Assembly: GCF_025643595.1 (NCBI RefSeq)
Contig: NZ_CP102826.1
Span: 6,138,001-6,202,000 of the forward strand
Source of the DNA: Saccharopolyspora rosea
Lineage (GTDB): Bacteria > Actinomycetota > Actinomycetes > Mycobacteriales > Pseudonocardiaceae
DNA: 64,000 nucleotides
Direction: 5' to 3'
Positions 34,349 to 57,125 of the stretch are shown here, one piece after another. The number at the start of each line of letters is the position of its first letter. Position 1 is the stretch's first letter. Under the pieces are notes generated by a model that worked only from the letters and a program-made list of their open reading frames with translations, was not told the DNA's origin and ran no database searches. A program made the translations under genes and the position numbers.

Positions 34349-34662
34349 GCTTCGAGGGTAGGGGCGCCATGAGCACCACCCGGCACCGGGCTCGGTGAAC
34401 GCGCCCACATCATGCCTGGTCGAAGGCCCTGCGCAGGCGGAAACCGGACCTGCCAGGGCCGTTGGTCCCGGACTTTCGAGACCAACGCGGCCTGGCGGTG
34501 TGGCCGGACTTACACCCGACCCTGAGTCCTGTCCTTGAACTCGGTTCCGGCGGGGCGTGGTAAGCGGCGCCAGCCGCTTTCTCTTTCGGTGAGCGGTCTC
34601 GCCACTTGCACCGCCACTCAAAACGAGTTCAAAGACAGGCTCTGAGGTGCTCGCCAGCCGGG
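34349..34662. other. Intergenic region between ResA-like gene and ccdA
   Basis: 314 bp without a gene. It contains the leaderless ccdA promoter at its left end. An extended hairpin at 34453-34495 is built of CCAGG and GTTGGTC with their complements around the loop CCGGACTTTCGA. The full copy A of the dispersed palindromic repeat occupies 34521-34647. No open frame with a start and ribosome site was found, and no tRNA cloverleaf. Confidence 0.7.
34521..34647 (-). repeat. Dispersed palindromic repeat, copy A
   Basis: About 127 bp whose ends are near-perfect inverted repeats (left CCTGAGTCCTGTCCTTGAAC; the right end, read on the other strand, CCTCAGAGCCTGTCTTTGAA). In minus orientation it matches copy B at 57004-57125 over most of its length. 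It shares the exact 11-mer ACCGCTCACCG (34587-34597, minus strand) with copies B and C. It begins 16 bp beyond the end of the ResA-like gene. It encodes nothing; a mobile MITE-like origin or a structured RNA or terminator role are both possible. Confidence 0.8.
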
Positions 34663-35253
34663 TCAGTGCTCGGCGGCGACCTTCTGGACCTCCGGGAGCA
34701 GCTCGCTCTGCACGACCTGGGTCAGGTAGATCGCGGCGACCCGGTGCTGGCGGTCCAGCACGATCGTCGCGGGCACCGTGGCGCGCGGGAACTGCCGCAG
34801 CGCCAGCAGGCTGCGCCCGGCCGGGTCGTAGATCGACGGGTAGGTCAGGCGGCGGTCGTTGTGGAAGTCCGTCGCCGCGCTGCGGTCGTCGCGCACGTCG
34901 ATGCCCAGCACCTGGACGCCCTGCGGCCCGGCCTGGTCCTGCACGGCCTGGAGGTCATCGGCCTCGGACCGGCACGGCCCGCACCACGAGCCCCAGATGT
35001 TGAGCACGACGACCTTGCCCTGGAAGTCGTCCAGCGAGATCCGCTTGCCGGACTCGGTGAGGCTCTCGCCACCCAGCCCGGAGACGTGACCGCGCTCGTC
35101 GGGCTGGTAGAAGAGCCTGGTCTGCCCGCCTGGCGAGACGAACGTGAACTCGCCGCCCTGCTTGGAGACCGCGTCGTCACCCTGGGTCGCGCAGCCGCCG
35201 ACCAGCACCGCCGCCGCGGCCGCCACGGCCAGGCGGGCCAACAGTCGTTTCAT
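34663..35253 (-). CDS. resA: ResA/TlpA-like thioredoxin-fold lipoprotein
   Basis: 196 aa. A signal sequence with lipobox VGGC (Cys21) anchors it outside the membrane. The thioredoxin active site is WCGPC with C91 and C94, in NIWGSWCGPCRSEADDL. VPATIVLDRQHRV carries the cis-Pro. It would reduce apocytochrome c cysteines with electrons from CcdA. The ATG at 35253 overlaps the upstream stop (ATGA). It is separated from ccdA by a repeat-containing gap. Confidence 0.88.
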   Translation of the reverse strand: MKRLLARLAVAAAAAVLVGGCATQGDDAVSKQGGEFTFVSPGGQTRLFYQPDERGHVSGLGGESLTESGKRISLDDFQGKVVVLNIWGSWCGPCRSEADDLQAVQDQAGPQGVQVLGIDVRDDRSAATDFHNDRRLTYPSIYDPAGRSLLALRQFPRATVPATIVLDRQHRVAAIYLTQVVQSELLPEVQKVAAEH

Positions 35254-35885
35254 GCTCCTGTCACCTTCGGATCGGTCCCGCCCGCCGGTTCCACGTAGGC
35301 GATCCGCACCAGCTCCTCGTCGTCGAAGACGAGGCTGGTCAGCGACGCCAGCGCGCACTGCCGACGGCGCGGGTCGTGCCACATCGGCCTGCCCTCCAGG
35401 AACCGCCGCAACGTCCAGATCGGCAGCTGGTGCGACACGCACACCGCCTCGTGCCCGGCCGCCCGCGCGCGGGCGCGGTGCGCCGCGCCGAGCATGCGGT
35501 GCGCGATCTCCAGGTAGGGCTCGCCCCAGGACGGCCGGAACGGGTTCCACAGCTTCGGCCAGTGGCTCGGCGAGCGCAGCGCGCCGTCCCCGACCGACAC
35601 CTTCAACCCCTCGAAGAGGTTGCCCGCCTCGATGAGCCGGTCGTCGGTGGCGACGTCGAGCTGGAAGGCCGCGCCGACCGGTTCGGCGGTCTGCTGCGCG
35701 CGTTGCAGCGGGGACGCCACGACGTGGGTGATGTCGCGGTCCGCCAGGAACTCCGCGACCACCTTCGCCTGCCGCTCGCCGCGGTCCGACAGCCGGTACC
35801 CGGGCAGCCGCCCGTACAGGACCCCCTCCGGGTTGTGCACCTCGCCGTGGCGCAGGAAGTGCACGACGGTCCGCTCGCCGCTCAT
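35250..35885 (-). CDS. Histidine phosphatase (phosphoglycerate mutase-like) family protein
   Basis: 211 aa. [11 protein letters not shown] is the RHG catalytic motif with the phosphorylated His. [12 protein letters not shown] gives the second Arg, and [15 protein letters not shown] the second catalytic His. It is too divergent from GpmA to be the glycolytic mutase, which is at 63472. It is encoded between hemL and the ResA-like gene with ATGA overlaps at both ends, an order also found in mycobacteria. The substrate is unknown. Confidence 0.85.
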
Positions 35886-37219
35886 GCGCCCGCCTCCGCT
35901 GCGGCGGCGGCCCGGGCCGCGTGCGGCAGGGCGTCGGCGATGATCTCGAACGCCTCGTCGTCCATGGCGGCGTTGACGAACCAGCACTCGAACGCGCTCG
36001 GCGGCGGGTAGACGCCCCGCCGGAGCAGTTCGTGGAAGAACGCCGGGAACCGCCAGGTCTGCTGGGCCTGGGCCTGCTCGTAGTCGCGCACCGGGGTCTC
36101 GCTGAAGAAGACGCTGAGCATGTTGCCCGCGAACTGGACCTGGTGCGGCACGCCCGCGCTGGTCAGCGCCTCGCCGAGCAGGTCGCCGAGCCGCTTGCCG
36201 TTGCGGTCCAGCGCGGCGTAGGCGTCGGCGTCGGCGGCGCGCAGGTTCGCCAGCCCGGCGGCGACCGCGATCGGGTTCCCGGCCAGCGTGCCGGCCTGGT
36301 AGACGGGGCCGGAGGGGGCGAGGCGAGCCATCACGTCGGCGCGGCCGCCGAATGCGGCGGCGGGCAGCCCACCGGACATCACCTTGCCGAAGGTGTAGAG
36401 GTCACCGGCGACGCCGTCCACGCCGTACCAGCCGGCGGACGACACCCGGAAACCGGTCATGACCTCGTCCATCACCAGCAGCGCACCGGCGTCGGAGGTG
36501 ATCTCCCGCAGCCCGGCGTTGAACCCGGCCACCGGCGGGACGGCGCCCATGTTGCCCGGGGCGGCCTCGGTGATCACGCACGCGATGTCGTCGCCGTGCT
36601 CGGCGAACGCCCGGCGCACGACGTCGAGGTCGTTGTACGGCAGCACGATCGTGTCCGCCGCCTGCGCGCCGGTCACCCCGGGCGAGCTGGGCAGGCCCAG
36701 CGTGGCGACACCGGAACCGGCTCCGGCCAGCAGCGAGTCGACGTGGCCGTGGTAGCAGCCGGCGAACTTGACGACCTTGCGCCGACCGGTGAAACCGCGG
36801 GCCAGCCGCACCGCGCTCATGGTCGCCTCGGTGCCGGAGTTGACCAGCCGGACCTGCTCGACCGGTCCGACGCGGTCGATGATCTCCTGCGCCAGGTCGA
36901 TCTCCCCCACGCCCGGCGTGCCGAAGGACAGGCCGTGCTGCGCGGTCTCCCGTACCGCGCGGACGACGTCCGGGTGGGCGTGGCCGTTGACCATCGGCCC
37001 CCACGAGGACACCAGGTCCACGTACCGGTTGTCATCGGCGTCCCAGAGGTAGGCGCCCTGCCCGCGCACCATGAACCGAGGGGTCCCGCCCACCGACTGG
37101 AAGGCGCGGACCGGCGAGTTGACGCCGCCCGGCGTCACCGCGAGCGCGCGGTCGAACAGCTCCCGGGAGCGCGGCGCCGGATCGTTGTTCTGGTTCGATG
37201 CAGGATTCTCGGCTGTCAC
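35882..37219 (-). CDS. hemL: Glutamate-1-semialdehyde 2,1-aminomutase (HemL)
   Basis: PLP aminotransferase-fold enzyme, 445 aa, converting glutamate-1-semialdehyde to 5-aminolevulinate in the C5 pathway. [13 protein letters not shown] holds the PLP Asp and [18 protein letters not shown] the Schiff-base Lys. [13 protein letters not shown] is the family N-terminus. The GTG at 37219 is read as leaderless because CAGACT (37226-37231) lies 6 nt upstream. Its partner, glutamyl-tRNA reductase, is hemA at 44112. Confidence 0.95.
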
Positions 37220-37267
37220 GACCCCAGTCTGACAGGCGCGGACCTGTGAACGGCCACACCCTGCGCC

Positions 37268-37373
37268 TGACAACCCGGCTGCGAAACCGTCGTGCGCGGC
37301 GGTGCCGGCTGCGAGACCGCTCACCGGGGAGGCGAAGCGGCCACCGCCACCCAGGCCGAAGACGGGACCTTCA
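37268..37373 (+). repeat. Dispersed palindromic repeat, copy C (degenerate)
   Basis: About 106 bp, in the same orientation as copy B. It shares the 11-mer ACCGCTCACCG (37316-37326), then GAAGCGGCC and GCCGAAGACGGGACCTTCAG, the last matching the right end of copy B. About 25 bp of the right arm seen in B are missing. The inner stem is kept with different bases (GGCGGTG pairing with CACCGCC), consistent with selection for structure. Its right end includes the stop codon of the gene at 37371-37712. Confidence 0.65.
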
Positions 37374-37712
37374 GCCGCGCGGGCGCACCCGCAGCGCCAG
37401 GGCGACCTGCCGGACCGCGTTGATCAGCAGCAGCCCGGCCGCGGTCGCCGCCGCCACCGCCACGGCCAGCCAGCTGCCGATGGACCGCGTCACCACGTCG
37501 GTACCCCCCGCGGGCCCGGGAAGCGCGATCGTCAGCGAGCCCCGGCTCCAGGACCACCACGCGGCCAGCAGCAGCACCACCGCGCCGACCAGCTCGAACC
37601 CGGCGACGGCCGCGCGCCACGGCTGGTTCAGCCCACCGCTCCCGCGCGAGGTCTCCACGGCGTCCTCATCGACCTTCGGCCCGTCCGCAGGCCACGGTTC
37701 CGGAACGGTCAC
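37371..37712 (-). CDS. Two-helix membrane hypothetical protein
   Basis: 113 aa. A polar acidic N-terminus is followed by helices at about 36-55 ([18 protein letters not shown]) and 78-98 ([19 protein letters not shown]), then a short basic tail ending RPRG. The start is GTG at 37712. The stop codon falls in repeat copy C. It is the last of six small membrane-protein genes between hemB and hemL. No named family recognised. Confidence 0.6.
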
Positions 37713-37867
37713 GCGCGAAGCCTCTCACGCCTGCCCGCCGCCGGGCACCGCGAGGTCGGGGGCACAGCCGAACCGCCCGGGGCACTGTGCCGTTCGGCGT
37801 GCGGATCAGCTCAGCGCAGTCCCCGGGCAATCCGATCGGGCGACTCCTGCCGCGCCACGCGCGGACG

Positions 37868-38311
37868 TCAGGACTTCTCCACCAGCCGGGCCAGGGCCGC
37901 GGCGAGGGCTGCGGGGTCCTTGGCCCAGGCGAGCACGACGCGGTCGTCGGTGAGGCGCAGCGGGATCTCGCCGGTCCCCTTCGGAACGGTCCAGGTGCCC
38001 CCGAGGACGCGGGCACCGACCGGGGCTCCGACGTCGGTCACCTCGGCGATCCGGGAGATCTCCAGTTCCTCGCGGCCGAGCGAGAGGGACGCGGGCGTCA
38101 GCCGCACCGAGCACACCCGACGTCGTCCGTACACCCACACCGCCGCCGCGGCGGCGAGCGCCAGCGCCACCAGCACCCAGGTCACCGGATGCACCGAGCC
38201 CGGTGAGATCACCTCCACGAGCACGCCGACCAGCGCGAACGCCGGGCCCCACAACACCGGCCACCAACTGCTGCCGGGTTCGGCGTACAACTCGGGATCA
38301 GTCGTGCTCAC
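37868..38311 (-). CDS. DUF3093-like membrane protein
   Basis: 147 aa. Two adjacent N-terminal helices (about residues 17-38 and 42-62) precede a small PH-like beta domain with RLTPASLSLGREELEISRI. The WTVPKGTGEIPLRLTDDRVVLAWAKDP segment is reminiscent of actinobacterial DUF3093 proteins. The GTG at 38311 overlaps the preceding gene's end by 14 bp, so it is part of the same transcript. The function is unknown. Confidence 0.65.
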   Translation of the reverse strand: MSTTDPELYAEPGSSWWPVLWGPAFALVGVLVEVISPGSVHPVTWVLVALALAAAAAVWVYGRRRVCSVRLTPASLSLGREELEISRIAEVTDVGAPVGARVLGGTWTVPKGTGEIPLRLTDDRVVLAWAKDPAALAAALARLVEKS

Positions 38312-38702
38312 CGGTCAACCACTCCGTGCTCGGACGACGCCACATCAGCACCGCGGCCGTCCCGCCCAGCACCACCAGGACCGCCTGCGCGCCCAGGACC
38401 GCACCGGTGCCCAGCAGCATGAGCAGGTGCACCAGCGCGAACACCGACAGGACGATACGCACCCACGGGCGGCGCCGGAACAGCATCGCGCCGAGCACCA
38501 GGTACGCCGCCACCAGCACGGCGGCGAGCGCGGTGTGCACCAGCAGCAAGCGCGCGGCGTCGGCGGGCGGCGCACCCGGCCGCGGCGGCGCGCCGGTACC
38601 GACCGTCCAGGTGAGCGCGGTCAGCGCCGCGAGCAGCAGCGCCACCACCCACCACAGCGAGATCGCCCACCGCAGCGGGCGAGGCGGCCCGGACTCGACC
38701 AT
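38298..38702 (-). CDS. Four-helix membrane protein, member of a local paralogous family
   Basis: 134 aa with four hydrophobic helices. RRRPWVRIVLSVFALVHLL matches the R-x-W-x-R-[IV]-x-[LI]-[ST]-V core of the three neighbours to its right, so it looks like a divergent member of the same family. The ATG at 38702 overlaps the stop of the next paralogue by one base. No catalytic residues are seen. The function is unknown; location suggests an ancient tandem duplication. Confidence 0.62.
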   Translation of the reverse strand: MVESGPPRPLRWAISLWWVVALLLAALTALTWTVGTGAPPRPGAPPADAARLLLVHTALAAVLVAAYLVLGAMLFRRRPWVRIVLSVFALVHLLMLLGTGAVLGAQAVLVVLGGTAAVLMWRRPSTEWLTGEHD

Positions 38703-39364
38703 CACCGCAGGTGGGCCGCTGCCTGGAAGTACCAGTTGGACGGCTTGGCGTAGGCCAGCACCAGGAACCCGACCATCGCCACCAGCCCGAGCCCGCCCTG
38801 GACGTAGGTGAGCACCGCGAAGGCGGTGGGCGGCTGGATCCTGCTCGGCACGCCGCCGGCCCCGACGCCACCGTTGACCAGCAGGTAGACCGAGAACAGG
38901 ACGAACAGCGACGCGAACACCGTCAGGGTGACCCGCGCCCAGTTGCGCCCGGCGCGCATCTTGAACCCGAACAGGATCCACAGGAAGGTCAGGACCAGGT
39001 AGACGACCGTGAACAGGGCGAACACGAACATGATCCCGGCCTTGAAGAAGCTCAGCGTGCGCTCCAGCTCCTGACCGCTGCCACCCAGGTCCCGCACGCT
39101 GGAGGCCATGGCGCTGTCGGCCCAGTTGAACAACAGCAGGTAGCCGACGACCGAGATCACGGTCACGGCCAGCGGCACGATGATGGCGATCCAGAACGCC
39201 CCCTCGACGGTCTTCGGACGCGACAGCCCCGCCATCTCCTGCTGCGGCACCGGCGGCGCCGCGTACGGGTTCTGCTGGTACTGGGGGTACGGCTGCTGGA
39301 AACCGCCGGACTGCGGGTACTGCGGATATCCGCCCTGCTGCCAGGGACCTTGAGGCGTTGTCAC
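38702..39364 (-). CDS. Four-helix membrane protein with proline/glutamine-rich N-terminus, paralogous family
   Basis: 220 aa. Residues 1-45 are rich in Gln, Pro and Tyr (QQGGYPQYPQSGGFQQPYP) and probably disordered. Four transmembrane helices follow. The core MRAGRNWARVTLTVFASLF and the C-terminal YAKPSNWYF are shared with the genes at 39427 and 39911. The GTG at 39364 has TACTGT (39372-39377) 7 nt upstream and no ribosome site, indicating a leaderless start. The function is unknown. Confidence 0.68.
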   Translation of the reverse strand: MTTPQGPWQQGGYPQYPQSGGFQQPYPQYQQNPYAAPPVPQQEMAGLSRPKTVEGAFWIAIIVPLAVTVISVVGYLLLFNWADSAMASSVRDLGGSGQELERTLSFFKAGIMFVFALFTVVYLVLTFLWILFGFKMRAGRNWARVTLTVFASLFVLFSVYLLVNGGVGAGGVPSRIQPPTAFAVLTYVQGGLGLVAMVGFLVLAYAKPSNWYFQAAAHLR

Positions 39365-39426
39365 GCGACGAACAGTATGGATCCGGCGCGCGCGGTGTCC
39401 ACCGGATCGATCGAAACCGTCGCAGG

Positions 39427-39900
39427 TCACCCGTGGCGGAAGTAGGCGTTCGACGGCGCGAGGTAGGCGTAGACGAGCGTCACGAGCAGCGCGACGAGTT
39501 GCAGCAGCGACAGCAGTTGGGGGCCCACCCCGCCCTCGGCGCCGCCGAGCGCCGGCGGGAGGGCGAGCAGGAACCACAGGACGCCGACCACGGTGATCAC
39601 GATGCGGGCCCAGTTGCGCCCGCGCCGCATGAAGAACAGGAACAGGATCCACAGGGCGGCGATCACCGCGACGATCACGAACATCGCGACCACGGCCGTC
39701 CGGTAGATCGCCCGCGCCTGGTCGAGCGTGACGGGCCGGCCCTGCGCGGCCAGCTGGTCCACCACGGCCCGCAGCTCGGCGTCCGAGACCACCAGCAGCG
39801 CCGTCGCGAGCACGCCGAAACCGACGACCACGCTGGCGATGCCCGCCCAGAACGAGGTGTCCACGGTGGACGGACGAGGTGCTTCCCGGGGCGCCGTCAC
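39427..39900 (-). CDS. Four-helix membrane protein, paralogous family
   Basis: 157 aa. Core RRGRNWARIVITVVGVLWF and C-terminal YLAPSNAYF match the neighbouring paralogues. The GTG at 39900 is preferred over one at 39909 because TAGCGT (39908-39913) lies 7 nt upstream and would overlap the earlier start. A leaderless message is inferred. The extracytoplasmic loop between helices 1 and 2 contains a charged segment (LDQARAIYR). The function is unknown. Confidence 0.68.
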   Translation of the reverse strand: MTAPREAPRPSTVDTSFWAGIASVVVGFGVLATALLVVSDAELRAVVDQLAAQGRPVTLDQARAIYRTAVVAMFVIVAVIAALWILFLFFMRRGRNWARIVITVVGVLWFLLALPPALGGAEGGVGPQLLSLLQLVALLVTLVYAYLAPSNAYFRHG

Positions 39901-39910
39901 GCGCCCCACG

Positions 39911-40480
39911 CTAGGACGGGCGCTGCCCGGCCGCTACCCGCGAGCGCACGGCGGTGAAGTACCGGTTCGACTCGGGCCGGTACATCAGCACCAGCGCGGC
40001 CACCTCCAGCACCATCACGACCGCCGAGAACCCCATGTCCACCGCGCCGGGGCTGGTCCCGGTCAGCCGCGTGATCAGCTCCGACCCGAGCATCGACACG
40101 GTCACCAGGCTGATCAGCGTGAAGAACGAGCTGAGCCCGCCGAACACGGTGAGCACCACCCGAGCCCAGTTGTGCCCCTGCACCATGCGGTTCGACAGCA
40201 GCACGTACACGGCCAGGCTGAGCAGCGAGAACACCAGCGTGAACATGATCCCGCTGTTGGCCGCGGAGTCCAGCTGCACCTGGTCGAGCTGGGGCTGGAT
40301 CCGGTGCAGCTCCTCGATCAGCGACGTCCGGTCGGCGAGCTTGACGAACGAGTGCACGAACCCGACCAGCACCGAGGCGATCCACACCCGGCGCGCCAGC
40401 AGCAGCGGCCGGGGAGGGGTCGGCGGCGTCTCCCGCACCGGCCGGCCGAACGCGTCCGTCCGCTGGGGCGGTTCGGTCAT
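39911..40480 (-). CDS. Four-helix membrane protein downstream of hemB, paralogous family
   Basis: 189 aa. A Pro-rich N-terminus precedes helix 1 ([18 protein letters not shown]). Core [19 protein letters not shown] and C-terminal YRPESNRYF align with the paralogues at 38702 and 39427. The ATG at 40480 overlaps the hemB stop as ATGA, so it is the downstream partner of hemB. Such proteins are often annotated only as hypothetical; a role in haem synthesis is not shown. Confidence 0.68.
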
Positions 40481-41451
40481 GCCCGCAGCCACCACGCCGC
40501 CTCGGCCGCCCAGTACGTCAGGACGACGTCCGCGCCCGCGCGCCGGATCGACGTCAGCGACTCCAGCACGGTGCGCTCGCGGTCCAGCCACCCGTTGGCG
40601 ACCGCCGCCTCGATCATCGCGTACTCGCCGGACACCTGGTAGGCGGCGACCGGGACGTCGGCCACGCCCGCGATGTCCCGCAGCACGTCGAGGTAGCTCA
40701 TGGCGGGCTTGACCATGACCATGTCGGCGCCCTCGGCGAGGTCCAGATCCGCCTCGCGCAGCGCCTCCCGGCCGTTGGCCGGGTCCTGCTGGTAGGTCTT
40801 GCGGTCGCCCTGCAACTGCGAGTCGACGGCGTCGCGGAACGGCCCGAAGAACGCGGAGGCGTACTTCGCCGAGTAGGCCAGGATCGCCGTGTCGGCGAAA
40901 CCGGTCGCGTCCAGCGACTCGCGGATCACGCCGACCTGGCCGTCCATCATGCCGCTGGGCCCGACGACGTGGGCGCCGGACTGGGCCTGCACCACGGCCA
41001 TCTCGCCGTAGAGCTGGAGCGTGCGGTCGTTGTCGACGGTGCCGTCCTCGTCCAGGACGCCGCAGTGGCCGTGGTCGGTGAACTCGTCCAGGCACAGGTC
41101 GGCCATGAGCACCGTGTCCGACCCGACCTCGGCGGACAGGTCGCGCAGCGCCACGTTGAGGATGCCGTCCGGATCGACGGCGCCGGAGCCCGTGGCGTCC
41201 CGCTCCGCGGGCACGCCGAACAGCATCAGACCGCCGACCCCGGCGGACACCGCCTCGACCGCGGCCTTGCGCAGCGAGTCGCGGCTGTGCTGCACGACCC
41301 CGGGCATCGACGGGATCGGCACCGGCTCGCTCGCGCCCTCCCGGACGAACATCGGCAACACCAGGTGCCGCGGCTCCACCGACGTCTCGGACACCAGGCG
41401 GCGCACGGCGGCGTTGCGACGCAGCCGCCGCGGGCGGTGCGACGGGTACAT
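40477..41451 (-). CDS. hemB: Delta-aminolevulinic acid dehydratase (porphobilinogen synthase, HemB)
   Basis: 324 aa. Condenses two ALA molecules to porphobilinogen. The catalytic lysines are in [16 protein letters not shown] and [12 protein letters not shown]. The metal-site segment reads [14 protein letters not shown], with two of the three cysteines of zinc-type enzymes and Asp in place of the middle one, so the site looks mixed zinc/magnesium. The ATG at 41451 has GGGGAG about 8 nt upstream; the longer reading lacks conservation. A hairpin separates it from hemD. Confidence 0.94.
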
Positions 41452-41582
41452 ATGGCGGCTCCCCACGCTCGACACCAGCGACACCCCGAGCGTAGCCACC
41501 GCCGGCACCGGCCCCGGAGCCGGTACGACGTGATGTTCCCTCCGTCTCAGGAGCTGTCCGGACACCCCGCCGAGAACGCGGA

Positions 41583-41617: not shown

Positions 41618-41628
41618 CCGGGGTCGCG

Positions 41629-43161: not shown

Positions 43162-43179
43162 CAGGGCACTCCCCATCAA

Positions 43180-46935: not shown

Positions 46936-47337
46936 GCCGCCTCCGTGAGTGCCGAAGCGCTCGACCACCCCGACCGCCGCCCCCGTGGAGGCGCTGCGCG
47001 CCGCGGTGCCCGACCCGTCACCCGGCCGCCGCCCCCAACGAGGCGCTGCGCGCCGCGGTGCTTTTTCCCAAAGTACCTCCGGCCGTTCACACCTCCGGCG
47101 CCCGGTCGTGGGGAAAACCGCCGGTCAGGGTGGGCAACATCACTCCGCGCACCGGGTCCGAGCCGCTCCGGACACCGCGCCGGGGCCGAAATTCACCGCG
47201 CCGTCACACTACCTACTTCCGAGTAACAACACGTATGCTGCTCCTCCAACGCCCACGCCACCGGCGTGCCAGGCCCGCCTCACCTGGGATGTCCGCTCCC
47301 CGGGCCGGTGCGCCAACGACGGCAGGAGGTCGCTGAC
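46936..47337. other. Intergenic region with sigma-factor promoter and a 22-bp direct repeat
   Basis: 402 bp between divergent genes. GAGGCGCTGCGCGCCGCGG plus TGC occurs twice exactly (46988-47009 and 47040-47061), each containing the mini-hairpin GGCGC-TGC-GCGCC, the second followed by CTTTTT. Closer to the sigma gene, TATGCT (47234-47239) is a likely -10 about 99 bp before the start codon. No gene with start and ribosome site was found. Confidence 0.6.
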
Positions 47338-49014: not shown

Positions 49015-49019
49015 CCCGG

Positions 49020-51524
49020 TCACGAAGAGGCGGCCTCCGCCATCCCGCCGGACTCCTCCGGGCGGGCCAGCGCGCAGACCAGTTCGTCGTCCTCGACCGA
49101 GGCGATGATCGTGTCGCCCGGCTGGACGTCACCGCCCAGCAGGAGGCGGGAGATCCGGTTGTCCAGCTGGGTCTGGATGGTGCGGCGCAGCGGCCGGGCG
49201 CCGAACTGGGGCTGGTAGCCGCGTTCGGTGAGCCAGTGCTTGGCCTCGTCGGTGACCTCCAGGTCCACCTCCTGGGCGCGCAGCAGCCGGCGGCTGCGGT
49301 CCAGCAGCAGGTCGACGATCCGGGACAGCGCCTGCTGGTCGAGCCGGTGGAAGACGATGACCTCGTCGATGCGGTTGAGGAACTCGGGCGCGAACCCGGC
49401 GTGCAGGTCGTCCATCAGCCGGTCCCGGATCTCCTCCACCGGGCCCTCGTGGGCCAGGATCCGCTGCGCGCCGATGTTGCTGGTCATGATGACCACGGTG
49501 TTGCGGAAGTCCACCACGCGGCCCTGCGCGTCGGTGAGCCGCCCGTCGTCGAGGACCTGCAGCAGCGCGTTGAACACGTCCCGGTGCGCCTTCTCGATCT
49601 CGTCGAACAGCAGGACGCTGTAGGGCTGGCGGCGCACCTTCTCGGTCAGCTGGCCGGCCTCCTCGTAGCCGACGTAGCCGGGCGGTGCGCCGACCAGCCG
49701 GGACACCGTGTGCTTCTCCTGGAACTCGCTCATGTCGAAGCGCACCAGCCGGTGCTCGTCGCCGAACAGCATCGCGGCCAGCGCCTTGGCCAACTCGGTC
49801 TTGCCGACGCCGGTCGGGCCGAGGAACAGGAACGAGCCGATCGGCCGGTCCGGGTCGCCCATGCCCGCCCGGTTGCGCCGCACCGCCTCGGCGACCGCGG
49901 TGACCGCCTCGTCCTGGCCGACGACCCGCTCGTGCAGCGCCTCCTCCAGCTTGAGCAGCTTCTCCTTCTCGCTCTCGGTGAGCTGGGCGACGGGGATGCC
50001 GGTGCGGCGCGAGATCATCTCGGCGATGTCCTCGGCGGTCACCGCGGCGACGCCCTCGCGGCGCTCGGAGAGCCCGGCCAGCTCGCCCTCGGCGTCCTCG
50101 ATGCGCCGCTTGAGCTCGCCGGCCCGCTCGAAGTCCTCGGCCGAGACCGCCTCGTCCTTCTCCCGGCGCAGCTTGGCGATCTCGTCCTCCCGCTCCCGGA
50201 CGCCGGTGCTGCGGCGCAGCGACCGCAGCCGCACCCGGGCGCCCGCCTGGTCGACGAGGTCGATGGCCTTGTCGGGCAGGAACCGGTCGCTGACGTAGCG
50301 GTCGGACAGCTCGGCGGCGGCGCGCAGCGCCTCGTCGGTGAACCGCACCCCGTGGTGCGCCTCGTAGGAGTCGCGCAGCCCTTCGAGGATCTGGACGGTC
50401 TCCTCCACCGTCGGCTCCGGGATCATCACCGGCGCGAAGCGGCGTTCCAGCGCCGCGTCCTTCTCGACGTGCTTGCGGTACTCGTCGATCGTGGTGGCGC
50501 CGACGACGTGCAGCTCACCCCGGGCGAGCGCGGGTTTGAGGATGTTGCCCGCGTCCATGCCGCCCTCGGACGCCCCGGCGCCGACCACGGTGTGCAGTTC
50601 GTCGATGAACAGGATCACCGAGCCCTCGGCCTCCCGGACCTCGTCGATGACCTTCTTCAGCCGCTCCTCGAACTCGCCGCGGTACTTCGACCCGGCCACC
50701 AGCCCGGTCAGGTCCAGCGCCACGACCCGCTTGCCCTGCAACGTCTCGGGGACGTCCCCGGCGACGATGCGCTGGGCGAGCCCCTCGACGATCGCGGTCT
50801 TGCCGACGCCGGGTTCACCGATGAGCACCGGGTTGTTCTTCCCGCGCCGGGACAGGATCTCCACGGTCTGCTCGATCTCCTCGCCCCGGCCGACGACCAG
50901 GTCGAGCCGACCGGCGCGGGCCTGCTCGGTGAGGTCGCGGCCGTACTCGTCCAGCGTGGGCGTGTCGCTGGAGCCGGTGGCGGGCGCGCCCTCCGCGGCG
51001 GCCGAGCGGTCCGTGCGGTCGCGCAGCTTGTCGGTGTTGATCTCCTGCGCGCGCAGCAGCTTCACCGCGGCGCTGTCCGGGTCGTCCAGCAGGGCGCCGA
51101 GGATGTGCTCCGGGCCGATGTAGGACACCCCGGCGGCCTGCGAGCGGGCGTGCGCGCCGATGAGGGCGCGCTTGGCGGCCGGGGTCAGGCCGGGCCGGGC
51201 GGCGGGCTGGCCGCTCTCCCCGGGCAGGATCGCGGCGATCCGCTCCGCGAGGTGGTCGGGTTCGGCCCCGGCCTGCTGGAGCAGCTTGCGGGACGGGTCG
51301 ACCTGGGTGGCCGCCCACAGCAGGTGCTCGGTGTCGAGTTCGCCGCTGCCGTCCTGTTCGGCCCGCTCCGAGGCGGTGCGGATCAGGTCGGTCGCCGAGT
51401 CGGTGAGCAGGCGGCCGATCGGCACCCGCTGCACCGCGGGCGGCGAACTCGTCGGCGACATGCCGAAGAACCGGTTGAGCAGCTCGGCGAAGGGGTCCTG
51501 GGAGCCGAAACCCGGCAGGCTCAT
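49020..51524 (-). CDS. Clp/Hsp100 AAA+ ATPase, ClpC-like but without the ClpP-docking loop
   Basis: 834 aa. A non-conserved N-terminal 45 residues (FG/SP-rich) is followed by a double Clp-N domain (to about 185) and AAA1 with [10 protein letters not shown] short UVR-like coiled segment ([19 protein letters not shown]) comes next, then AAA2 with GPTGVGKTE. Between TSNIGAQRI and [11 protein letters not shown] there are only about 20 residues and no IGF/LGF tripeptide, unlike ClpC1 and ClpA. It may therefore act without ClpP, as ClpB does, although its middle domain is of ClpC size. The ATG at 51524 gives this N-terminus. Confidence 0.88.
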
Positions 51525-51607
51525 GGCGACCACCGTCCGAAGTGGACAACTCCGCGGAGCGTGTCCGAGGTAGGTGAACACGGGCTCGGCGGGCGCCCGA
51601 CGCGGTG

Positions 51608-52531
51608 TCAGCCGAGGAAGACGTTGCGCCGCTGGGCCAGCAGCCGGTACAGGGTCTGCTGGATGATCTCGCGCACCTGGTCGGCCAGGCCGAACACGAG
51701 CATCGGGTCGTCCGCCGCGCCCTGCGGGTACCCAGCGGTCTCGACCGGCTCACCGAACTCGATGTACCACTTCGAGGGCAACGGGACCGCGCCCAGCGGC
51801 CCCAGGTGCGGGAAGAACGGCGTCACCGGGAAGTACGGCAGCCCCAGCAGCCGGGCCAGCGGCCGGATGTCGCCCAGCTTCGGGTAGATCTCCTCGGCGC
51901 CGACGATCGCGCACGGCACGATCGGGGCTCCGGTGCGCAGTGCGGCCGACACGAACCCGCCGCGGCCGAACCGCTGCAACTTGTACCGGTCCTTGAACGG
52001 CTTGCCGATGCCCTTGAAGCCCTCGGGCCACACGCCGACCAGCTCACCGTCGGTGAGCAGCCGCTCCGCGTCGGGGTTGCAGGCGAGCGTGTGCCCGGCC
52101 TTGCGGGCCAGCGGCCCCACCACCGGCAGGCGGAACACCAGATCGGCGCCGAGCATCCGCAGGTGGCGCTGCGCCGGGTGGTGGTCGTGCAGCGCGACGG
52201 TGGTCATCAGCGCGTCCCACGGCAGGGTGCCGGAGTGGTTGGCGACGACGAGCGCCCCGCTGCCGGCGGGCACGTGGTGCAGGCCGACGGCCTCCACCCG
52301 GAACCACCGGTCGTAGAACGGGCGGAGCAACCGCAGGAACACCTCGTCGTTGAGCTCCTGGTCGAAGCCGAACTCGTCGACCTCGTAGTCGCCGAGCAGC
52401 CGCCGCCGCGCGAACGCCAGCGCCCCGGCGACGGCGCTCTCCCAGCCCGGCGCCTGCTCGGGCGCCTCGGGCGGCGGGTCGGGCTGCTGCTGCGCTCGCG
52501 GGTGCAGCGGGATCACCTGCGCGTCGGCCAT
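51608..52531 (-). CDS. PlsC-like phospholipid/glycerol acyltransferase family protein
   Basis: 307 aa. The acyltransferase motif I is [15 protein letters not shown], a variant with six rather than four residues between His and Asp. [13 protein letters not shown] takes the place of the EGTRS block. [16 protein letters not shown] is block IV. No clear transmembrane helix is seen, so it is probably membrane-peripheral. The ATG at 52531 has GAGGAGG upstream. It lies 13 bp after the epimerase gene, an order kept in mycobacteria (Rv0501-Rv0502 region as I recall). The acyl acceptor is unknown. Confidence 0.82.
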
Positions 52532-52544
52532 CGGTCCTCCTCCC

Positions 52545-53579
52545 TCACCGCAGCCTCGCCAGCAGGTCCCCGACGCCGGTCTCGACGGCCCGCACGTTCT
52601 CCGGATCGACGACCGGACGCAGCCCGCGCCCCCGGACGAAGTCGTCGAACGCCTGCGCCGTCGTCCAGCGCGGGGTGTAGCCGAACCGCTCCCGCAACCG
52701 GCTGGTGTCCACCGCGCGGCCGAAGCCGAGGTACCGCAGCTGTTCCGGGGAGAAGTCCACCAACCGCGCACCGCGCAGGAAACCGGCCAGCGGCGACACC
52801 GCCGCGCTCGGCACCGGCAGCGGCACCCGCCCCGCCCGCCGGATGGCCTGCGAGAGCATCAGCACCCCGTCGCCGCCGACGTTGTACACGCCCGGCAGGT
52901 CGTGCAGCGCCGCGCGCTCCAGCACCGCGAGGGCGTCCTCGGAGTGCAGCAGCTGCAACCGGGCGTCGTACCCGCAGACCACCGGCACCACCGGCATGGC
53001 GAAGTACCTGGTCAGCGGCACGTCGATGTGCGGTCCGACGAGTTCGCAGAACCGCAGCGCGGTGATGCCGACGTCCGGCCTGCGGCGGCCGAAGCCGCGC
53101 ACGTAGCCCTCGATCTCCACCGCGTCCTTGGCGTATCCGGAGGACGGCAGGTCCTTGGGCTCCATGTCCTCGGTGAACACCGCCGGGTCCCGCGGGCTGG
53201 CCCCGTAGACCGCGGAGGTGGAGCGGACGACGAGCTTGTGCACCAGCTCCGACTTCTGGCACGCGGCCAGCAGCTGCATGGTGCCGATGACGTTCATCTC
53301 CTTGGTCGTCGCCCGCCCGCCCGGCCCGGCGTGCTGGTCGACCGCGGCGTGCACGACGGTGTCCACACCGGCTCCGGAGATCACCTTGGCGATCAGCGGA
53401 TTGCGGATGTCGGCGCGGACGAACTCGGTGCGCCCCATGCGGCGCAGCAGATCGGGTCCTGGCTGCGCGGTGTCGACGCCGAGCACGCGATCGATCGCCG
53501 GGTTCGCCGCCAGCCGCGCGGCGAGGTGGCCGCCGAGGAAGCGGCTGACACCCGTCACCAGCACGACGTTCGGCCCCAT
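52545..53579 (-). CDS. NAD-dependent epimerase/dehydratase family protein (extended SDR)
   Basis: 344 aa. VLVTGVSRFLGGHLAARLA is the NAD-binding loop. STSAVYG followed by GYAKDAVE gives the Ser/Tyr-x3-Lys catalytic pair (Tyr and Lys in SSGYAKDAVEIEGY). The C-terminal half is the variable substrate domain. Mycobacterial orthologues are named galE2, but sugar epimerase activity is not established by these motifs. The ATG at 53579 has GGGGAG upstream. Cotranscription with the acyltransferase is likely. Confidence 0.83.
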   Translation of the reverse strand: MGPNVVLVTGVSRFLGGHLAARLAANPAIDRVLGVDTAQPGPDLLRRMGRTEFVRADIRNPLIAKVISGAGVDTVVHAAVDQHAGPGGRATTKEMNVIGTMQLLAACQKSELVHKLVVRSTSAVYGASPRDPAVFTEDMEPKDLPSSGYAKDAVEIEGYVRGFGRRRPDVGITALRFCELVGPHIDVPLTRYFAMPVVPVVCGYDARLQLLHSEDALAVLERAALHDLPGVYNVGGDGVLMLSQAIRRAGRVPLPVPSAAVSPLAGFLRGARLVDFSPEQLRYLGFGRAVDTSRLRERFGYTPRWTTAQAFDDFVRGRGLRPVVDPENVRAVETGVGDLLARLR

Positions 53580-53678
53580 GTGTCTCCCCGAACTGCGACG
53601 ACGCCGACAGCGCCACATGCTACCGCCGCCCCGCCGCCCACCCCGGTTCCGCGCGGTTACGGCGCCGTGAAAGAAACA

Positions 53679-53707
53679 ACCGCCGCCGACCTCGGGCCGA
53701 CGGCGGT
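53679..53707 (-). terminator. Rho-independent terminator after the 33-residue ribosomal protein gene
   Basis: ACCGCCG (53679-53685) and CGGCGGT (53701-53707) form the stem. Read on the minus strand, TTGTTTCTTTC follows directly, giving the rare T-rich tail of a classical terminator. It lies 12 bp beyond the stop of the small gene. Confidence 0.8.
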
Positions 53708-53718
53708 GGGGGACAAGC

Positions 53719-53820
53719 TCACTTGCCCAACTTGCGACGCTGGACTCGCGTCTTCCGCAGCAGCTTGCGGTGCTTCTTCTTCGACATGCGCTTGCGGCGC
53801 TTCTTGATGACCGAGCCCAT
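53719..53820 (-). CDS. Small ribosomal protein bS22 (AURKAIP1/COX24 domain), 33 aa
   Basis: 33 residues, extremely basic: [20 protein letters not shown] followed by [13 protein letters not shown]. This is the AURKAIP1/COX24-type protein found as bS22 in mycobacterial 30S subunit structures. The ATG at 53820 and TGA at 53719 delimit it, and it is below usual gene-finder limits. A classical terminator follows. It lies between the excisionase-like HTH gene and the epimerase gene, the same order as in mycobacteria. Confidence 0.93.
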
Positions 53821-54023
53821 GCGGACTCCTTCGCAGTCGACGGCAGTTCGGATGTCTTCACGCGCCGGTGCAGCCGAACGAGCGCACCCGGCACGACCGA
53901 ACCACTACCCTACCTGGCCTGCAGGAGGGACCTGCCGCCGTGGTCCGGGAATGGGCGGCCGGGACCGGCGAGCAGCCCCGGCCGCTGCCCGCCCCGCGGA
54001 GGCGCCGCAGCGGGGACCGGCGG

Positions 54024-54254
54024 TCATCCCGCGTTGTAGTAGGCGCTCTCCAGGTACTTGTGGACGTCCTTTTCCGCGACCCGAAATGAACGGCCGACCC
54101 GGGCAGCCGGGAGCTCGCCCGCGTGCACGAGCCGGTACACCGTCATCTTCGACACGCGCATCAGCTTGGCCACCTCGGCGACGGTGAGGAACCGCACCTG
54201 CCCCATCGACGACGACGGCGGTGCCTGCTGGCTTGGTTCGGAGTTGGCAGACAT
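54024..54254 (-). CDS. Excisionase-family helix-turn-helix DNA-binding protein
   Basis: 76 aa. A Ser/Gln-rich N-terminal 18 residues is followed by RFLTVAEVAKLMRVSKMTVYRL and LVHAGELPAARVGRSFRVAEKDVHKYL, a MerR/excisionase-type winged helix like BldC. The ATG is at 54254. This is the conserved actinobacterial gene found next to proC (Rv0500A in M. tuberculosis as I recall). It is a chromosomal regulator, not evidence of a prophage. Its targets are unknown. Confidence 0.88.
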   Translation of the reverse strand: MSANSEPSQQAPPSSSMGQVRFLTVAEVAKLMRVSKMTVYRLVHAGELPAARVGRSFRVAEKDVHKYLESAYYNAG

Positions 54255-54394
54255 GCTTCACCGTGCCCTTCAGCACGTGTCGCGCCGTCGGCTTCCCCTC
54301 CGACGGAAACCTCACGCACGTGCTCTGTCGAGAGTAGCGGGACAGGTGGGAAGGCTGCGATGGTCGAACGGCCCGCTACCGACGAAGTGCCTGG

Positions 54395-55207
54395 TCAGCC
54401 CGCCTCGTGCTGGCGGCCGAGCTCCACCGATCGGTCCCGCGCCGCCTCGATGGCGTCGATGAGCGCAGCCCGCACGCCGTGCTTCTCCAGCTCCCGGATG
54501 CCCGCGATGGTGGTGCCCGCCGGGGAGGTCACGGCCTCGCGCAGCATGACCGGGTGCCCGCCTCCCTCGCGCAGCATCGCGGCGGCGCCGACCGCCGACT
54601 GCACGATCAGCTCGGCGGCGGTGGCGCGCGGGATGCCCAGCAGGATCCCGGCGTCGATCATGGCCTCGACCAGGTAGAAGAAGTACGCCGGGCCGGAGCC
54701 GGACAGCGCGGTGACCGCGTCCTGCTGGCTCTCCGGTAGCCGCACCACCTTGCCGACGCTGCCGAGCAACTCCTCCACCAGGTCCAGGTCGGAGTCCTGG
54801 GCGTGCGAGCCGCCGGAGATGGCGCTCATCGCCTCCCCGACCAGCATCGGCGTGTTCGGCATGACCCGGACCACCGCGGTGCCCGCGGGCAGCCGCCGCT
54901 CGAACAGCGCCGTCGGCAGCCCGGCGCACATCGACACCACGAGCTTGCCGGGCGGCAGCTCCGGCGCCATCTCGTCCAGCAGCGGTTCGATGTCCTGGGG
55001 CTTGACGGCGATGACGACGACGTCGGCGCGCTGCAGCGCACCGATCACGTCGACGTGCTCGATGTCGTACTTCTTCGCCAGCTCGGCGGCCCGCTGCGGG
55101 TAGCGCTCGGTGAACATCAGGTCCTGCGGGGAGCGCCCGGCGTCGAGCAGCCCCGACAGCAGGGACTCACCGATCTTTCCCGCTCCCAGCACGGCGATCC
55201 TCGTCAT
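54395..55207 (-). CDS. proC: Pyrroline-5-carboxylate reductase (ProC)
   Basis: 270 aa, last step of proline synthesis. IAVLGAGKIGESLLSGLLDAG is the NAD(P)H loop, VVRVMPNTPMLVGEAMSAI and ALSGSGPAYFFYLVEAMIDAG are core motifs, and LREAVTSPAGTTIAGIRELE is the C-terminal signature. The ATG at 55207 has CACCCT 7 nt upstream and no ribosome site, suggesting a leaderless message. It is divergent from the acyl-CoA ligase, sharing 158 bp. Confidence 0.95.
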   Translation of the reverse strand: MTRIAVLGAGKIGESLLSGLLDAGRSPQDLMFTERYPQRAAELAKKYDIEHVDVIGALQRADVVVIAVKPQDIEPLLDEMAPELPPGKLVVSMCAGLPTALFERRLPAGTAVVRVMPNTPMLVGEAMSAISGGSHAQDSDLDLVEELLGSVGKVVRLPESQQDAVTALSGSGPAYFFYLVEAMIDAGILLGIPRATAAELIVQSAVGAAAMLREGGGHPVMLREAVTSPAGTTIAGIRELEKHGVRAALIDAIEAARDRSVELGRQHEAG

Positions 55208-55269
55208 GCCGATCAGGGTGCCAGACGTCCTGCTCAGCGCCCGGCGACCCCTCCCGCGCGGTGATCTCA

Positions 55270-55300
55270 CGGGCTACTGTGTCGACCACCACAGAGCCCG
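55270..55300. promoter_or_regulatory. Imperfect palindrome over the acyl-CoA ligase promoter
   Basis: CGGGCTACTGTG (55270-55281) and CACAGAGCCCG (55290-55300) are complementary over 11 bp with one extra A and an 8-nt centre. TACTGT within the left arm (55275-55280) can serve as a -10 for the ligase gene, so a dimeric repressor bound here would block transcription. Fatty-acid-responsive TetR or FadR-type regulators act this way; the regulator itself is not in the window. Confidence 0.5.
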
Positions 55301-55365
55301 CCACGGCCACGCGATCTCGCCCGACCGCCACGCGGTCCGCCGATCGAAGGAGCACTGATAGCCCG

Positions 55366-56994
55366 ATGTTGAGCACGATGCAGGACGGCCGGTTGTCGAT
55401 CGCGCAGATCCTCCGCCAGGGCAGCGGGCCGCACGGCCGCAGCGCCGAGGTCGTCACGTGGACCGACGAGCGACCGCGGCGGCGCGACTACGCGACCGTC
55501 GGTCACCGGGCCGCCCAACTGGCGCACGCGCTGCGCGACCTCGGCATCACCGGCGACCAGCGGGTCGGCACGTTCATGTGGAACAACGCCGAGCACCTGG
55601 AGGCGTACTTCGCGGTCCCGGCCATGGGCGCGGTGCTGCACACGCTCAACATCCGGTTGTTCCCGGAGCAGATCACCTACATCGCCAACCACGCCGAGGA
55701 CCGGGTGGTGCTGGTGGACGCGACGTTGCTGCCGCTGTTCCGGAAACTGCTGCCGCAGCTGCGGACGGTGCGGCACGTGGTCGTCGCGGGCGGCGACGGG
55801 GCGGTGCTGGACGCCCCGGCGGGCGTCGAGGTGCACGACTACGAGGAACTGATCGCCGGGAGGCCGACCGAGTTCGACTGGCCCGACGTGGACGAGCGCA
55901 GCGCGGCCGCGATGTGCTACACGTCCGGGACCACCGGCAACCCGAAGGGCGTGGCCTACTCGCACCGCTCGATCTGGCTGCACTCGATGCAGGTCTGCAT
56001 GAGCGACGGCATGGCGCTGTCCCAGGCGGACCGGGCGCTGTCGGTGGTGCCGATGTTCCACGCGATGTCCTGGGGACTGCCGTACGCGGCGTTCATGGTC
56101 GGCGCGTCGCTGCTGATGCCCGACCGGTTCCTGCAGCCCGACCCGCTGACCCGGCTGATCGCCGCGGAACGGCCCACGATGGCCGCCGCGGTCCCCACGA
56201 TCTGGCAGGGCGTGCTCCAGCACCTGGAAGCCGAACCGCGCGACGTGTCCTCGCTGCGCGAGGTCGTGATCGGCGGCGCGGCCTGCCCGCCGTCGCTCAT
56301 GCGGACCTTCGAGGAGTCCTACGGCATCCCGGTGCTGCACGCGTGGGGCATGACCGAGACCTCGCCGCTGGGCAGCGTGGCCCGACCGCCCGCGGGCACC
56401 ACCGGCGACCGGCTGTGGGAGTACCGGGCCAGCCAGGGCCGCCTCCCGGCGGGCGTGGAGGCGCGGCTGGTGGGCGACGACGGCTCGGTGCTGCCGCGGG
56501 ACGGCAGCAGCGTCGGCGAGCTGGAGGTCCGCGGCCCGTGGATCGCCGCCGCGTACTACGGCGACGACGACCCGGAGAAGTTCGACGACGGCTGGCTGCG
56601 CACCGGCGACGTCGGCTACCTCACGCCGGACGGGTTCCTGCACCTCACCGACCGGGCCAAGGACGTGATCAAGTCCGGCGGGGAGTGGATCTCCTCGGTG
56701 GAGCTGGAGAACCACGTGCTCGGCCACCCGGCGGTCGCCGAGGCCGTCGTCATCGGCGTGCCGGACGAGAAGTGGACCGAACGCCCGCTGGTGGCGGTGG
56801 TCCTGCGGGACGGGCAGCGGGTGGACGCCGAGGAGCTCCGCACCTACCTCGCCGAACGGGTGGCCCGCTGGCAGCTGCCGGAGTACTGGGCCTTCGTCCC
56901 GGAAGCCCCGAAGACCAGCGTCGGCAAGTACGACAAGAAGCGCCTCCGCCAACAGCACGCCGAAGGCGCCCTCGACGTCACCCGCCTGTCCTGA
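55366..56994 (+). CDS. Medium/long-chain acyl-CoA ligase (AMP-forming, FadD/AlkK-like)
   Basis: 542 aa. CYTSGTTGNPKGVAYSH is the P-loop-like AMP motif, LHAWGMTETSPLGS the A5 motif, and GWLRTGDVGYL with DRAKDVIKSGGEWISS the hinge region. SVGKYDKKRLR at the C-terminus supplies the catalytic Lys. It activates fatty acids to acyl-CoA; the VVPMFHAMSWGLPY block resembles medium-chain ligases. The ATG at 55366 lies 13 nt after AAGGAG, wider than ideal; an ATG at 55378 is the alternative. It ends 10 bp before repeat copy B. Confidence 0.9.
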   Translation: MLSTMQDGRLSIAQILRQGSGPHGRSAEVVTWTDERPRRRDYATVGHRAAQLAHALRDLGITGDQRVGTFMWNNAEHLEAYFAVPAMGAVLHTLNIRLFPEQITYIANHAEDRVVLVDATLLPLFRKLLPQLRTVRHVVVAGGDGAVLDAPAGVEVHDYEELIAGRPTEFDWPDVDERSAAAMCYTSGTTGNPKGVAYSHRSIWLHSMQVCMSDGMALSQADRALSVVPMFHAMSWGLPYAAFMVGASLLMPDRFLQPDPLTRLIAAERPTMAAAVPTIWQGVLQHLEAEPRDVSSLREVVIGGAACPPSLMRTFEESYGIPVLHAWGMTETSPLGSVARPPAGTTGDRLWEYRASQGRLPAGVEARLVGDDGSVLPRDGSSVGELEVRGPWIAAAYYGDDDPEKFDDGWLRTGDVGYLTPDGFLHLTDRAKDVIKSGGEWISSVELENHVLGHPAVAEAVVIGVPDEKWTERPLVAVVLRDGQRVDAEELRTYLAERVARWQLPEYWAFVPEAPKTSVGKYDKKRLRQQHAEGALDVTRLS

Positions 56995-57003
56995 CCGACC
57001 GGT

Positions 57004-57125
57004 CAGAGCCTGTCTTCGACTCGTCCCGAGCAGCGGCGCCGGTCGCGGGACCGCTCACCGCAGGAGGAAGCGGCCGGCGCCGCTCGCCACGCCTTCCGGG
57101 AGCAGGTTCGAAGACGGGCTCCTCA
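57004..57125 (+). repeat. Dispersed palindromic repeat, copy B (best preserved)
   Basis: About 122 bp filling the gap between two convergent genes. The ends are inverted repeats: CAGAGCCTGTCTTCGA at left and, read on the other strand, CTGAGGAGCCCGTCTTCGAA at right. Nested inside is a perfect 11-bp inverted repeat, AGCGGCGCCGG (57032-57042) and CCGGCGCCGCT (57074-57084), and inside that CCGCT/AGCGG. It shares the 11-mer ACCGCTCACCG with copies A and C. It could serve as a bidirectional terminator here. Its right end contains the thioesterase stop codon. Confidence 0.85.

Follow-up and report, generated by a model that had tools for sequence, protein, structure and literature searches.

The palindromic repeats reported previously from a 64,000-nucleotide stretch of the Saccharopolyspora rosea genome (the window) are short, partly decayed members of a genome-wide dispersed family. 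On balance the family is probably a structured element that has been moved by an IS5-family transposase and whose sense copies have been kept as folded mRNA 3' ends. It is read as a putative 3'-UTR RNA that is mobile because transposon ends carry it.

Copies in the window and in related genomes

The initial annotation had described three related intervals, all with ACCGCTCACCG, and alignment bore out both their relatedness and their positions; a fourth copy, a degraded long form, had been overlooked (Table 1). TGA lies outside both ends of copy A (34523-34525 and 34643-34645) and TCA outside both ends of copy B (57003-57005 and 57123-57125), the right end of the latter having an additional C, and the second of these TCA triplets is the stop codon of a minus-strand gene. 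Copy C has kept the core GCGGTGCCGGCTGCGAGACCGCTCACCG, its ends have decayed and on the right it ends with the TCA that serves as stop codon for the minus-strand gene at 37371-37712. The fourth copy retains GGAACCTCAGCGGCCGTCTCGGCTCCGGGA of the main hairpin and lies about 39 bp downstream of a gene ending at 23975. That the copies adjoin the 3' ends of minus-strand genes holds for all three of those first described, but copy B also lies behind a plus-strand gene and copy C is antisense to the gene that it adjoins. The gene at 55366-56994 and its convergent neighbour keep their synteny within the genus.

Table 1. Copies of the element in the window and the genes beside them
Feature	Position	Strand	Details
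Fourth copy, degraded long form	~23991-24132	+	blastn 24014-24047; model E 0.022, weak alone
Copy A, short form	34526..34642	-	left end at the high coordinate; alignment and covariance model
Gene by copy A	34663..35253	-	3' end ~16 bp from copy A interval; longest ORF to 35550
Copy C, eroded short form	37268..37373	+	alignment; blastn core match 37307-37326
Gene by copy C	37371..37712	-	stop codon adjoins copy C
Gene before copy B	55366..56994	+	stop codon ~9 bp upstream of copy B; longest ORF from 55261
Copy B, short form	57006..57122	+	both IS5-like ends; blastn, alignment
Convergent gene	57123..57914	-	TGA stop is the right-hand TCA at copy B; longest ORF end 57983

The main hairpin of the family is missing from copies A, B and C. 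A covariance model of the full form matched copy A at 34544-34627 on the minus strand (E 4.2e-5), skipping 114 model positions between two GCGGTGC repeats, and gave only E 1.9 for copy B; copy C was not matched by this model up to E 10. Judged by sequence, copies B and C belong to the family through their similarity to the short form. All three are short derivatives from which the main hairpin has been lost, in copy A exactly between the two GCGGTGC repeats. Copies A and B are strongly palindromic, as first described, and fold better than 200 of 200 shuffles on either strand, with z-scores of -7.4 (the element's strand) and -4.7 for A and of -4.9 and -3.6 for B, in which the perfect 11-bp inverted repeat (57032-57042 with 57074-57084) was also confirmed. 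It had been proposed that the stem of copy C is retained with different bases, as if structure were selected; the proposal is unsupported, because copy C folds no better than shuffled sequence (z +0.9 and +0.4, with 165/200 and 133/200 shuffles folding at least as well).

Further copies, whose absence would have counted against the initial annotation, were found genome-wide. With copy B as the blastn query its own genome yielded at least 41 places at E <= 1.5e-15, covering between 66 and 122 of the 122 bases (the best 40 of 362 candidates were scored and copy B itself is counted). The terminal motif GCCTGTCTTYGAAC, with at most one mismatch, occurs 336 times, compared with three times for a reversed control, and these counts together with the blastn places mean that the repeat is not due to chance. 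Extrapolation from a 2.06-Mb sample gives about 318 clusters for the genome. Nested insertions were observed, both of copies into copies and of insertion sequences (IS) into copies.

The element is present in 19 of 22 genomes of the genus, and a wider survey of the order found it in 11 of 85 sampled genera and in 32 of 397 genomes, all of them in one actinobacterial family. Six genomes searched with the model at E <= 1e-6 had 119, at least 150, at least 150, 55, 36 and 109 copies, the genome with 55 being identified as that of Saccharopolyspora erythraea. No blastn match of the G013 element was found among 50,697 phage and 72,556 plasmid records. A search of named genome contigs, a collection from which near relatives may be missing, with an exact 20-base short-form pattern gave a single match in a planctomycete MAG that is taken as chance. 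No earlier description of the repeat or RNA was found in the open-licence PMC literature, and neither the window nor any of the element copies scanned gave a match at the gathering score of an Rfam 15 family; a mir-512 match on a hairpin in L023 was sub-threshold (38 of 94 bits) and is likewise attributed to chance.

Fold and covariation of the full form

The full form is a structured element of 187 positions, or about 190 bases, in which a long hairpin containing conserved internal loops precedes a short one, both of them covarying. Covariation, which had been suggested as a check on the repeat, is present in the full-form family, at 20 of 45 pairs in the genus alignment (A2) and at 29 of 45 in the alignment of the other genera (A3), the latter leaning towards the model because it was made against it. 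None of 500 shuffles matched either alignment on any of the five measures used, and slid controls were far lower. One helix occurs in 34 forms in which the sequence has changed and the pairing is kept. The internal loops are near-invariant over 11 genera, whilst the outer ends, compared by eye, differ between lineages. Variable pairs favour G-U over A-C in the genus (52:27) and the opposite in the other genera (16:40), so that this asymmetry, which bears on whether RNA or single-stranded DNA folds, points in contrary directions. The family has a conserved secondary structure with covariation beyond that of shuffles, and the suggestion of a structured 3'-UTR or RNA family is supported for the family as a whole, on covariation and on the orientation bias described below, but not for copies A to C, which have no main hairpin.

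IS5-like ends, flanking TNA and position behind genes

The IS resident in the genome is of the IS5 family (NF033580) and is present in nine intact copies, which have inverted ends of 22 bases and are flanked by TNA left and right. Comparison of the element ends, GAGCCTGTCTTTGAAC and GTGCCTGTCTTYGAAC, with the IS end, GTGCCTGTCTTTGATCTTGG, shows that the 14 terminal bases are identical, beyond which the sequences diverge and agreement is partial. TNA adjoins 57 of 84 un-nested element ends, compared with 2.4% of non-coding positions, the remaining 27 of 84 having no TNA. Short length, the lack of a transposase, terminal inverted repeats that match those of a resident IS and the frequency of TNA beside the ends support the MITE-like nature proposed in the initial annotation, for the window's own genome, although the two flanking TNA did not agree significantly more often than expected (6 of 12 testable elements, against 4.3 expected; p 0.23), and in 8 of 20 paired elements TNA was not on both sides. 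At the B gap a B-type copy was absent from all 16 readable relatives, species that are too distant for base-exact empty sites. Eight of the nine intact IS copies lie at one site, CCTCAGCGG, within long forms of the repeat, two of them with the same flanks and possibly representing one duplicated event. A composite transposon that includes the IS was considered on that account; since the forms around the IS are not alike (insX, insY or both), independent insertion of the IS at one preferred site is likelier.

The IS5-family transposase would move the element in trans and duplicate TNA. As TNA reads as a stop codon on one of its two strands, insertion at a TGA would rebuild the stop and be tolerated, so that elements would come to adjoin genes. 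The target motif, together with loss of insertions within genes, would account for the place at gene 3' ends. A special preference for stop codons was looked for and rejected, a called stop being the target in 15 of 64 un-nested elements as against 205 of 576 CTNAG sites that were non-coding or stop (p 0.053, towards fewer); the corresponding figures were 17 of 76 for all elements (p 0.028, towards fewer) and 14 of 45 for un-nested elements with a TNA end (p 0.63, towards fewer).

The element lies mostly behind a gene, in the sense direction and often right after the stop codon. The upstream gene runs into the element in 71 of 88 genus copies, and in these the median distance from stop to element is 16 nt. 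Between co-directional genes 88 copies were sense and 33 antisense (p 5.9e-7) when pooled, a strand-specific placement of the kind expected of a transcript, and the corresponding ratios were 42:13 in the genus, 29:12 in the window's own genome (p 0.012) and 17:8 in other genera alone (p 0.11), all of these counts including orthologous or near-identical loci more than once; the bias is clear in the genus and in the pooled data only. A link to one kind of gene was rejected, as 100 upstream proteins fell into 89 clusters. No promoter was found by consensus in L214. Sense copies have probably been kept preferentially because a putative folded transcript shapes mRNA 3' ends, the effect being protection, processing or non-canonical termination.

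Other readings, known repeats and significance

It is somewhat unlikely that the family is a purely selfish MITE in which the fold matters as DNA or as a by-product only, with covariation reflecting template-switch correction that acts on imperfect palindromes, and the bias reflecting the elimination of antisense copies that do harm. The IS5-like ends with TNA, the nesting of copies and IS in copies and the state of the window copies, reduced yet with transposon-like ends, would all fit such an origin, and the stop-codon position requires no function. However, the loops are near-invariant and the helices covary over 11 genera while the outer ends differ, and palindrome correction predicts neither conserved asymmetric loops nor a sense bias. 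Orientation bias and compensatory helix changes are a better fit to a folded single strand than to a DNA-level structural or binding element, such as a BIME-like site bound by gyrase or a nucleoid protein, which despite the high copy number, the palindromes and the location behind genes is very unlikely.

A mobile transcription terminator or insulator without a U-tract, acting mainly between convergent genes, is an unlikely alternative to the mobile 3'-UTR reading, although it draws on several observations. Convergent gaps are over-represented among the elements (28 convergent, 25 tandem and 4 divergent, compared with 87, 328 and 146 for CTNAG sites; p 2.9e-8), the last hairpin covaries and the element is the sole hairpin seen by eye in the B gap, where relatives have other hairpins. 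Against this, 88 sense copies precede co-directional genes, no terminator-like site was found in L214 and neither TTTT nor six T in 10 nt follows the last hairpin in any of 141 aligned copies. The mobile terminator of the initial annotation is unlikely in the form of a canonical intrinsic terminator, because none of these 141 copies has a U-tract.

Several known repeats resemble the element in part. The ERIC or IRU sequences of enterobacteria are imperfect palindromes, about 127 bp long, that occupy intergenic stretches which are transcribed and have TA as target; they share the imperfect palindrome with the present element, but their sequence is unrelated and the target here is TNA. Members of the IS1031 group of the IS5 family have a TNA target, and the resident IS and the element share 14 terminal bases and TNA flanks; the element, however, has no transposase and in its inner structure bears no relation to the IS. 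REP/BIME sequences of the GTAG and CGTC families are described as high-copy palindromes mostly downstream of coding regions and plausibly transcribed, the REPs being thought to be miniature transposons of 20-40 bp linked to tyrosine transposases (RAYT) (PMC3733652). High-copy palindromes behind genes are common to both, whereas the present element is about 190 nt long, folds into a covarying structure of several loops and has IS5-like ends that adjoin TNA; its length and IS5-type ends argue against a RAYT-type REP. REPs also serve as targets for insertion sequences (PMC1525189), as does the long form of the repeat for eight of nine intact IS copies at CCTCAGCGG, except that here the ends of the IS are of one type with those of the repeat that it enters. 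Correia repeat enclosed elements of Neisseria exceed 100 copies, have inverted ends and a conserved core and can act on neighbours through RNA (RNase III) (PMC2649163). They too are short, have inverted ends and occur in many copies, but are of other sequence and host group; a covarying multi-loop RNA core is not among the features described for them in the extract of that paper, and the present element favours gene 3' ends and the sense direction.

Put forward tentatively, as a possibility short of probable, is that the family constitutes a new class of mobile structured RNA, a single conserved domain of about 190 nt that has spread through the actinobacterial family as a portable 3'-UTR, on transposon ends that vary with lineage, and whose landing at stop codons may have provided unrelated genes, tens to hundreds of them in each genome, with one kind of folded mRNA end open to recognition by a host factor common to all. 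RNA-seq of Saccharopolyspora erythraea, the erythromycin producer, is reported to have revealed 190 putative intergenic ncRNAs (PMC3610266). If the mobile 3'-UTR reading is true, many transcripts of a family that includes this species would have a transposon-borne RNA in common at their 3' ends, and high-GC actinobacteria would have a shared signal for mRNA 3'-end behaviour that lends itself to testing. There would be a simple reason for short transposons to adjoin genes, namely that TNA reads as a stop on one of its strands and that duplicating it restores the stop, and the element would exemplify, among bacteria, a mobile RNA domain adopted as a widespread UTR.

A dispersed, modular repeat

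The kinship of intervals A, B and C reported in the initial annotation was borne out as described, the perfect 11-bp inverted repeat inside B is present, and further copies exist elsewhere in the genome. With the best 40 of 362 candidates scored, B matches at least 41 places, itself included, in its own 6.56-Mb genome (E <= 1.5e-15), and a search for GCCTGTCTTYGAAC with at most one mismatch gave 336 occurrences, the reversed control giving 3; A, B and C are therefore no chance trio. In a sample of 2.064 Mb, made up of the window and 100 stretches of 20 kb each, we counted 100 clusters containing one or more modules apart from the insert insY, which extrapolates to about 318 clusters per genome.

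Copies in this genome are modular in make-up. The short form, represented by A, B and C, consists of left end, core and right end (~120 bp), whilst the long form (~230 bp) has an extra hairpin, insX, in its left arm between two GGCGGTGC direct repeats; a second type of insert, insY, can replace insX or lie beside it, and copies are occasionally nested. When A was aligned to the covariance model R1, 114 model positions were skipped exactly between the direct repeats, and the short form thus looks like a long form after deletion between them. The window copies lack the main hairpin and may be nothing beyond decayed MITEs. A and B fold better than 200 of 200 shuffles on both strands, and C shows no folding excess over 200 shuffles.

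Features located in the window and in other loci (L)
Feature	Location	Strand	Remark
Copy A	window 34526..34642	-	short form
Copy B	window 57006..57122	+	short form
Copy C	window 37268..37373	+	short form
Fourth copy	window near 23991-24132		degraded
insY-related short repeat	window 46969-47061	+	two copies, 52 bp apart (CGCCCGACCACCGCC..GAGGCGCTG..)
Similar arrays	L046 16567-16771; L059 8130-8380; L080 8885-9032		~52-bp spacing; elsewhere in the genome
In-phase tandem repeats	window 30286-30435; 59333-59461		short; 30-bp and 15-bp periods; within called genes
ATTTCAATTGAAAT-type hairpins	L197, L200, L202, L203 and others		in relatives, between convergent genes; gap orthologous to window 56995-57122
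Intact IS5-family copies	L128, L135, L139, L142, L145, L147, L149, L150, L151		
mraW RNA (RF01746)	L097 14900-15012	-	exceeds its gathering score

Ends, target and position at gene ends

GAGCCTGTCTTTGAAC forms the left end of the element; its right end, read on the opposite strand, is GTGCCTGTCTTYGAAC. An IS5-family transposase (NF033580, E 6.9e-59) was found at ten loci, nine intact and one in two pieces, and eight of the intact copies are 100% and one 99% identical to the query protein. The insertion sequence ends in GTGCCTGTCTTTGATCTTGG, with TNA outside in 9/9 intact copies, and its ends equal the right end of the element over 14 terminal bases. Eight of the nine are inserted in CCTCAGCGG of the long form, two of these with identical flanks, and the ninth in CCTCAGCGTG elsewhere. 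In the sample, 84 of 96 element ends did not adjoin another repeat, and TNA lay outside 57 of these 84 as against 2.4% of non-coding positions. TNA stood on both sides of just 12 of 20 paired elements, and the two were equal in 6 of the 12 (4.3 expected, p 0.23, not significant). TGA flanks A on both sides and TCA flanks B, with one additional C at the right. We infer that the IS5 transposase is the mover of the element.

Each of TGA, TAA, TCA and TTA reads as a stop on one of the two strands, and the minus-strand gene at B has the right TCA as its stop codon. With gene calls from a codon-usage script (uncurated; 86.5% coding), a called stop codon was the target of 15 of 64 un-nested elements in the sample; of the CTNAG sites lying outside repeats, 205 coincided with stops, 371 fell in gaps and 1032 within coding sequence. 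Compared with non-coding-or-stop CTNAG sites the elements showed no excess at stops (p 0.053, towards fewer), so that the target motif, together with the loss of insertions in coding sequence, suffices to account for the position at gene ends. Element sites were convergent in 28 cases, tandem in 25, divergent in 4, at an edge in 5 and inside genes in 2, against 87, 328, 146, 21 and 974 for CTNAG sites; convergent gaps are over-represented among elements (p 2.9e-8 when set against tandem and divergent gaps combined).

Sequence around B was matched in 22/22 genus genomes, and of 19 relatives aligned the gap was readable in 16, none of which had a B-type copy by eye. By eye, many carry other hairpins there, a long-form element is present in G013 and G014, and G004 has a portion of such an element. 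The G013 element occurs in 19/22 genus genomes (E <= 1e-8), the matches listed, from a few genomes, having 84-100% identity. Outer sequences vary: by eye, G000 (the window's genome) and G013 have IS5-like ends, and G003, G007 and G017 have copies in which it is set within a ATTTCAAT/TGAAAT hairpin with other ends. The ATTTCAATTGAAAT-type hairpins, absent by eye from this gap in the window's own genome, are perhaps a genus-wide terminator-like element.

Structure, orientation and distribution

The genus alignment, A2 (84 of 88 genus copies fetched plus 14 of 15 own copies), has 98.1% of cells paired over 45 pairs, 20 of them changed on both sides, and 0/500 shuffles reached any of five measures, in a test favoured by the structure having been predicted from the same alignment; slid partners paired in 33-47%. 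A single helix took 34 forms. In A3, comprising 43 other-genus matches aligned to the covariance model, 92.4% of cells were paired and 29/45 pairs changed on both sides (0/500 shuffles). Internal loops are near-invariant in parts (around GCGGAAC, GTCCTCG and AGAACCCGC). G-U predominates at three pairs in A2 and A3 alike; at the other pairs G-U to A-C stood at 52:27 in the genus and 16:40 in other genera, counts that do not decide between RNA and single-stranded DNA. No element copy scanned gave an Rfam 15 match at gathering score, and one sub-threshold microRNA match was taken as chance.

The element lies in sense with co-directional flanking genes in 29/41 cases in its own genome (p 0.012), 42/55 in the genus (p 1.1e-4) and 17/25 in other genera (p 0.11), or 88/121 pooled (p 5.9e-7), orthologous or near-identical loci (e.g. 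L225/L226, L308/L321, L344/L345) being counted repeatedly. The upstream gene reads into 71 of 88 genus copies, at a median of 16 nt from stop to start of the query region, and the upstream proteins are diverse (100 fall into 89 clusters). Among 18 exact stop-codon ends in the own-genome sample 14 could be oriented, ten at the 5' end of the element and four at the 3' end.

Under stricter filters, R1 matched 32 genomes out of 397 from the order, which belong to 11 of its 85 sampled genera and all to the same family, and in a phylum sample of 396 genomes the element was found in its own genome only. With the best 150 candidates scored in each genome, matches at E <= 1e-6 numbered 119 in G000, at least 150 in each of its relatives G013 and G003, and 55, 36 and 109 in G259, G333 and G294. 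G259, of another genus, also encodes a protein that over its length matches chains of erythromycin C-12 hydroxylase (921-923 bits); if this genome is that of Saccharopolyspora erythraea, the family would be Pseudonocardiaceae. The genes upstream of the element at L314 and L341, which come from two genera, encode closely related proteins of 168-172 aa, and this may be an orthologous site long retained.

A canonical terminator is counted against by the lack of a U-tract in 141/141 aligned copies. The element is dispersed, covarying and orientation-biased, with IS5-like ends in its own genome, and its putative transcript would probably have a role at mRNA 3' ends.
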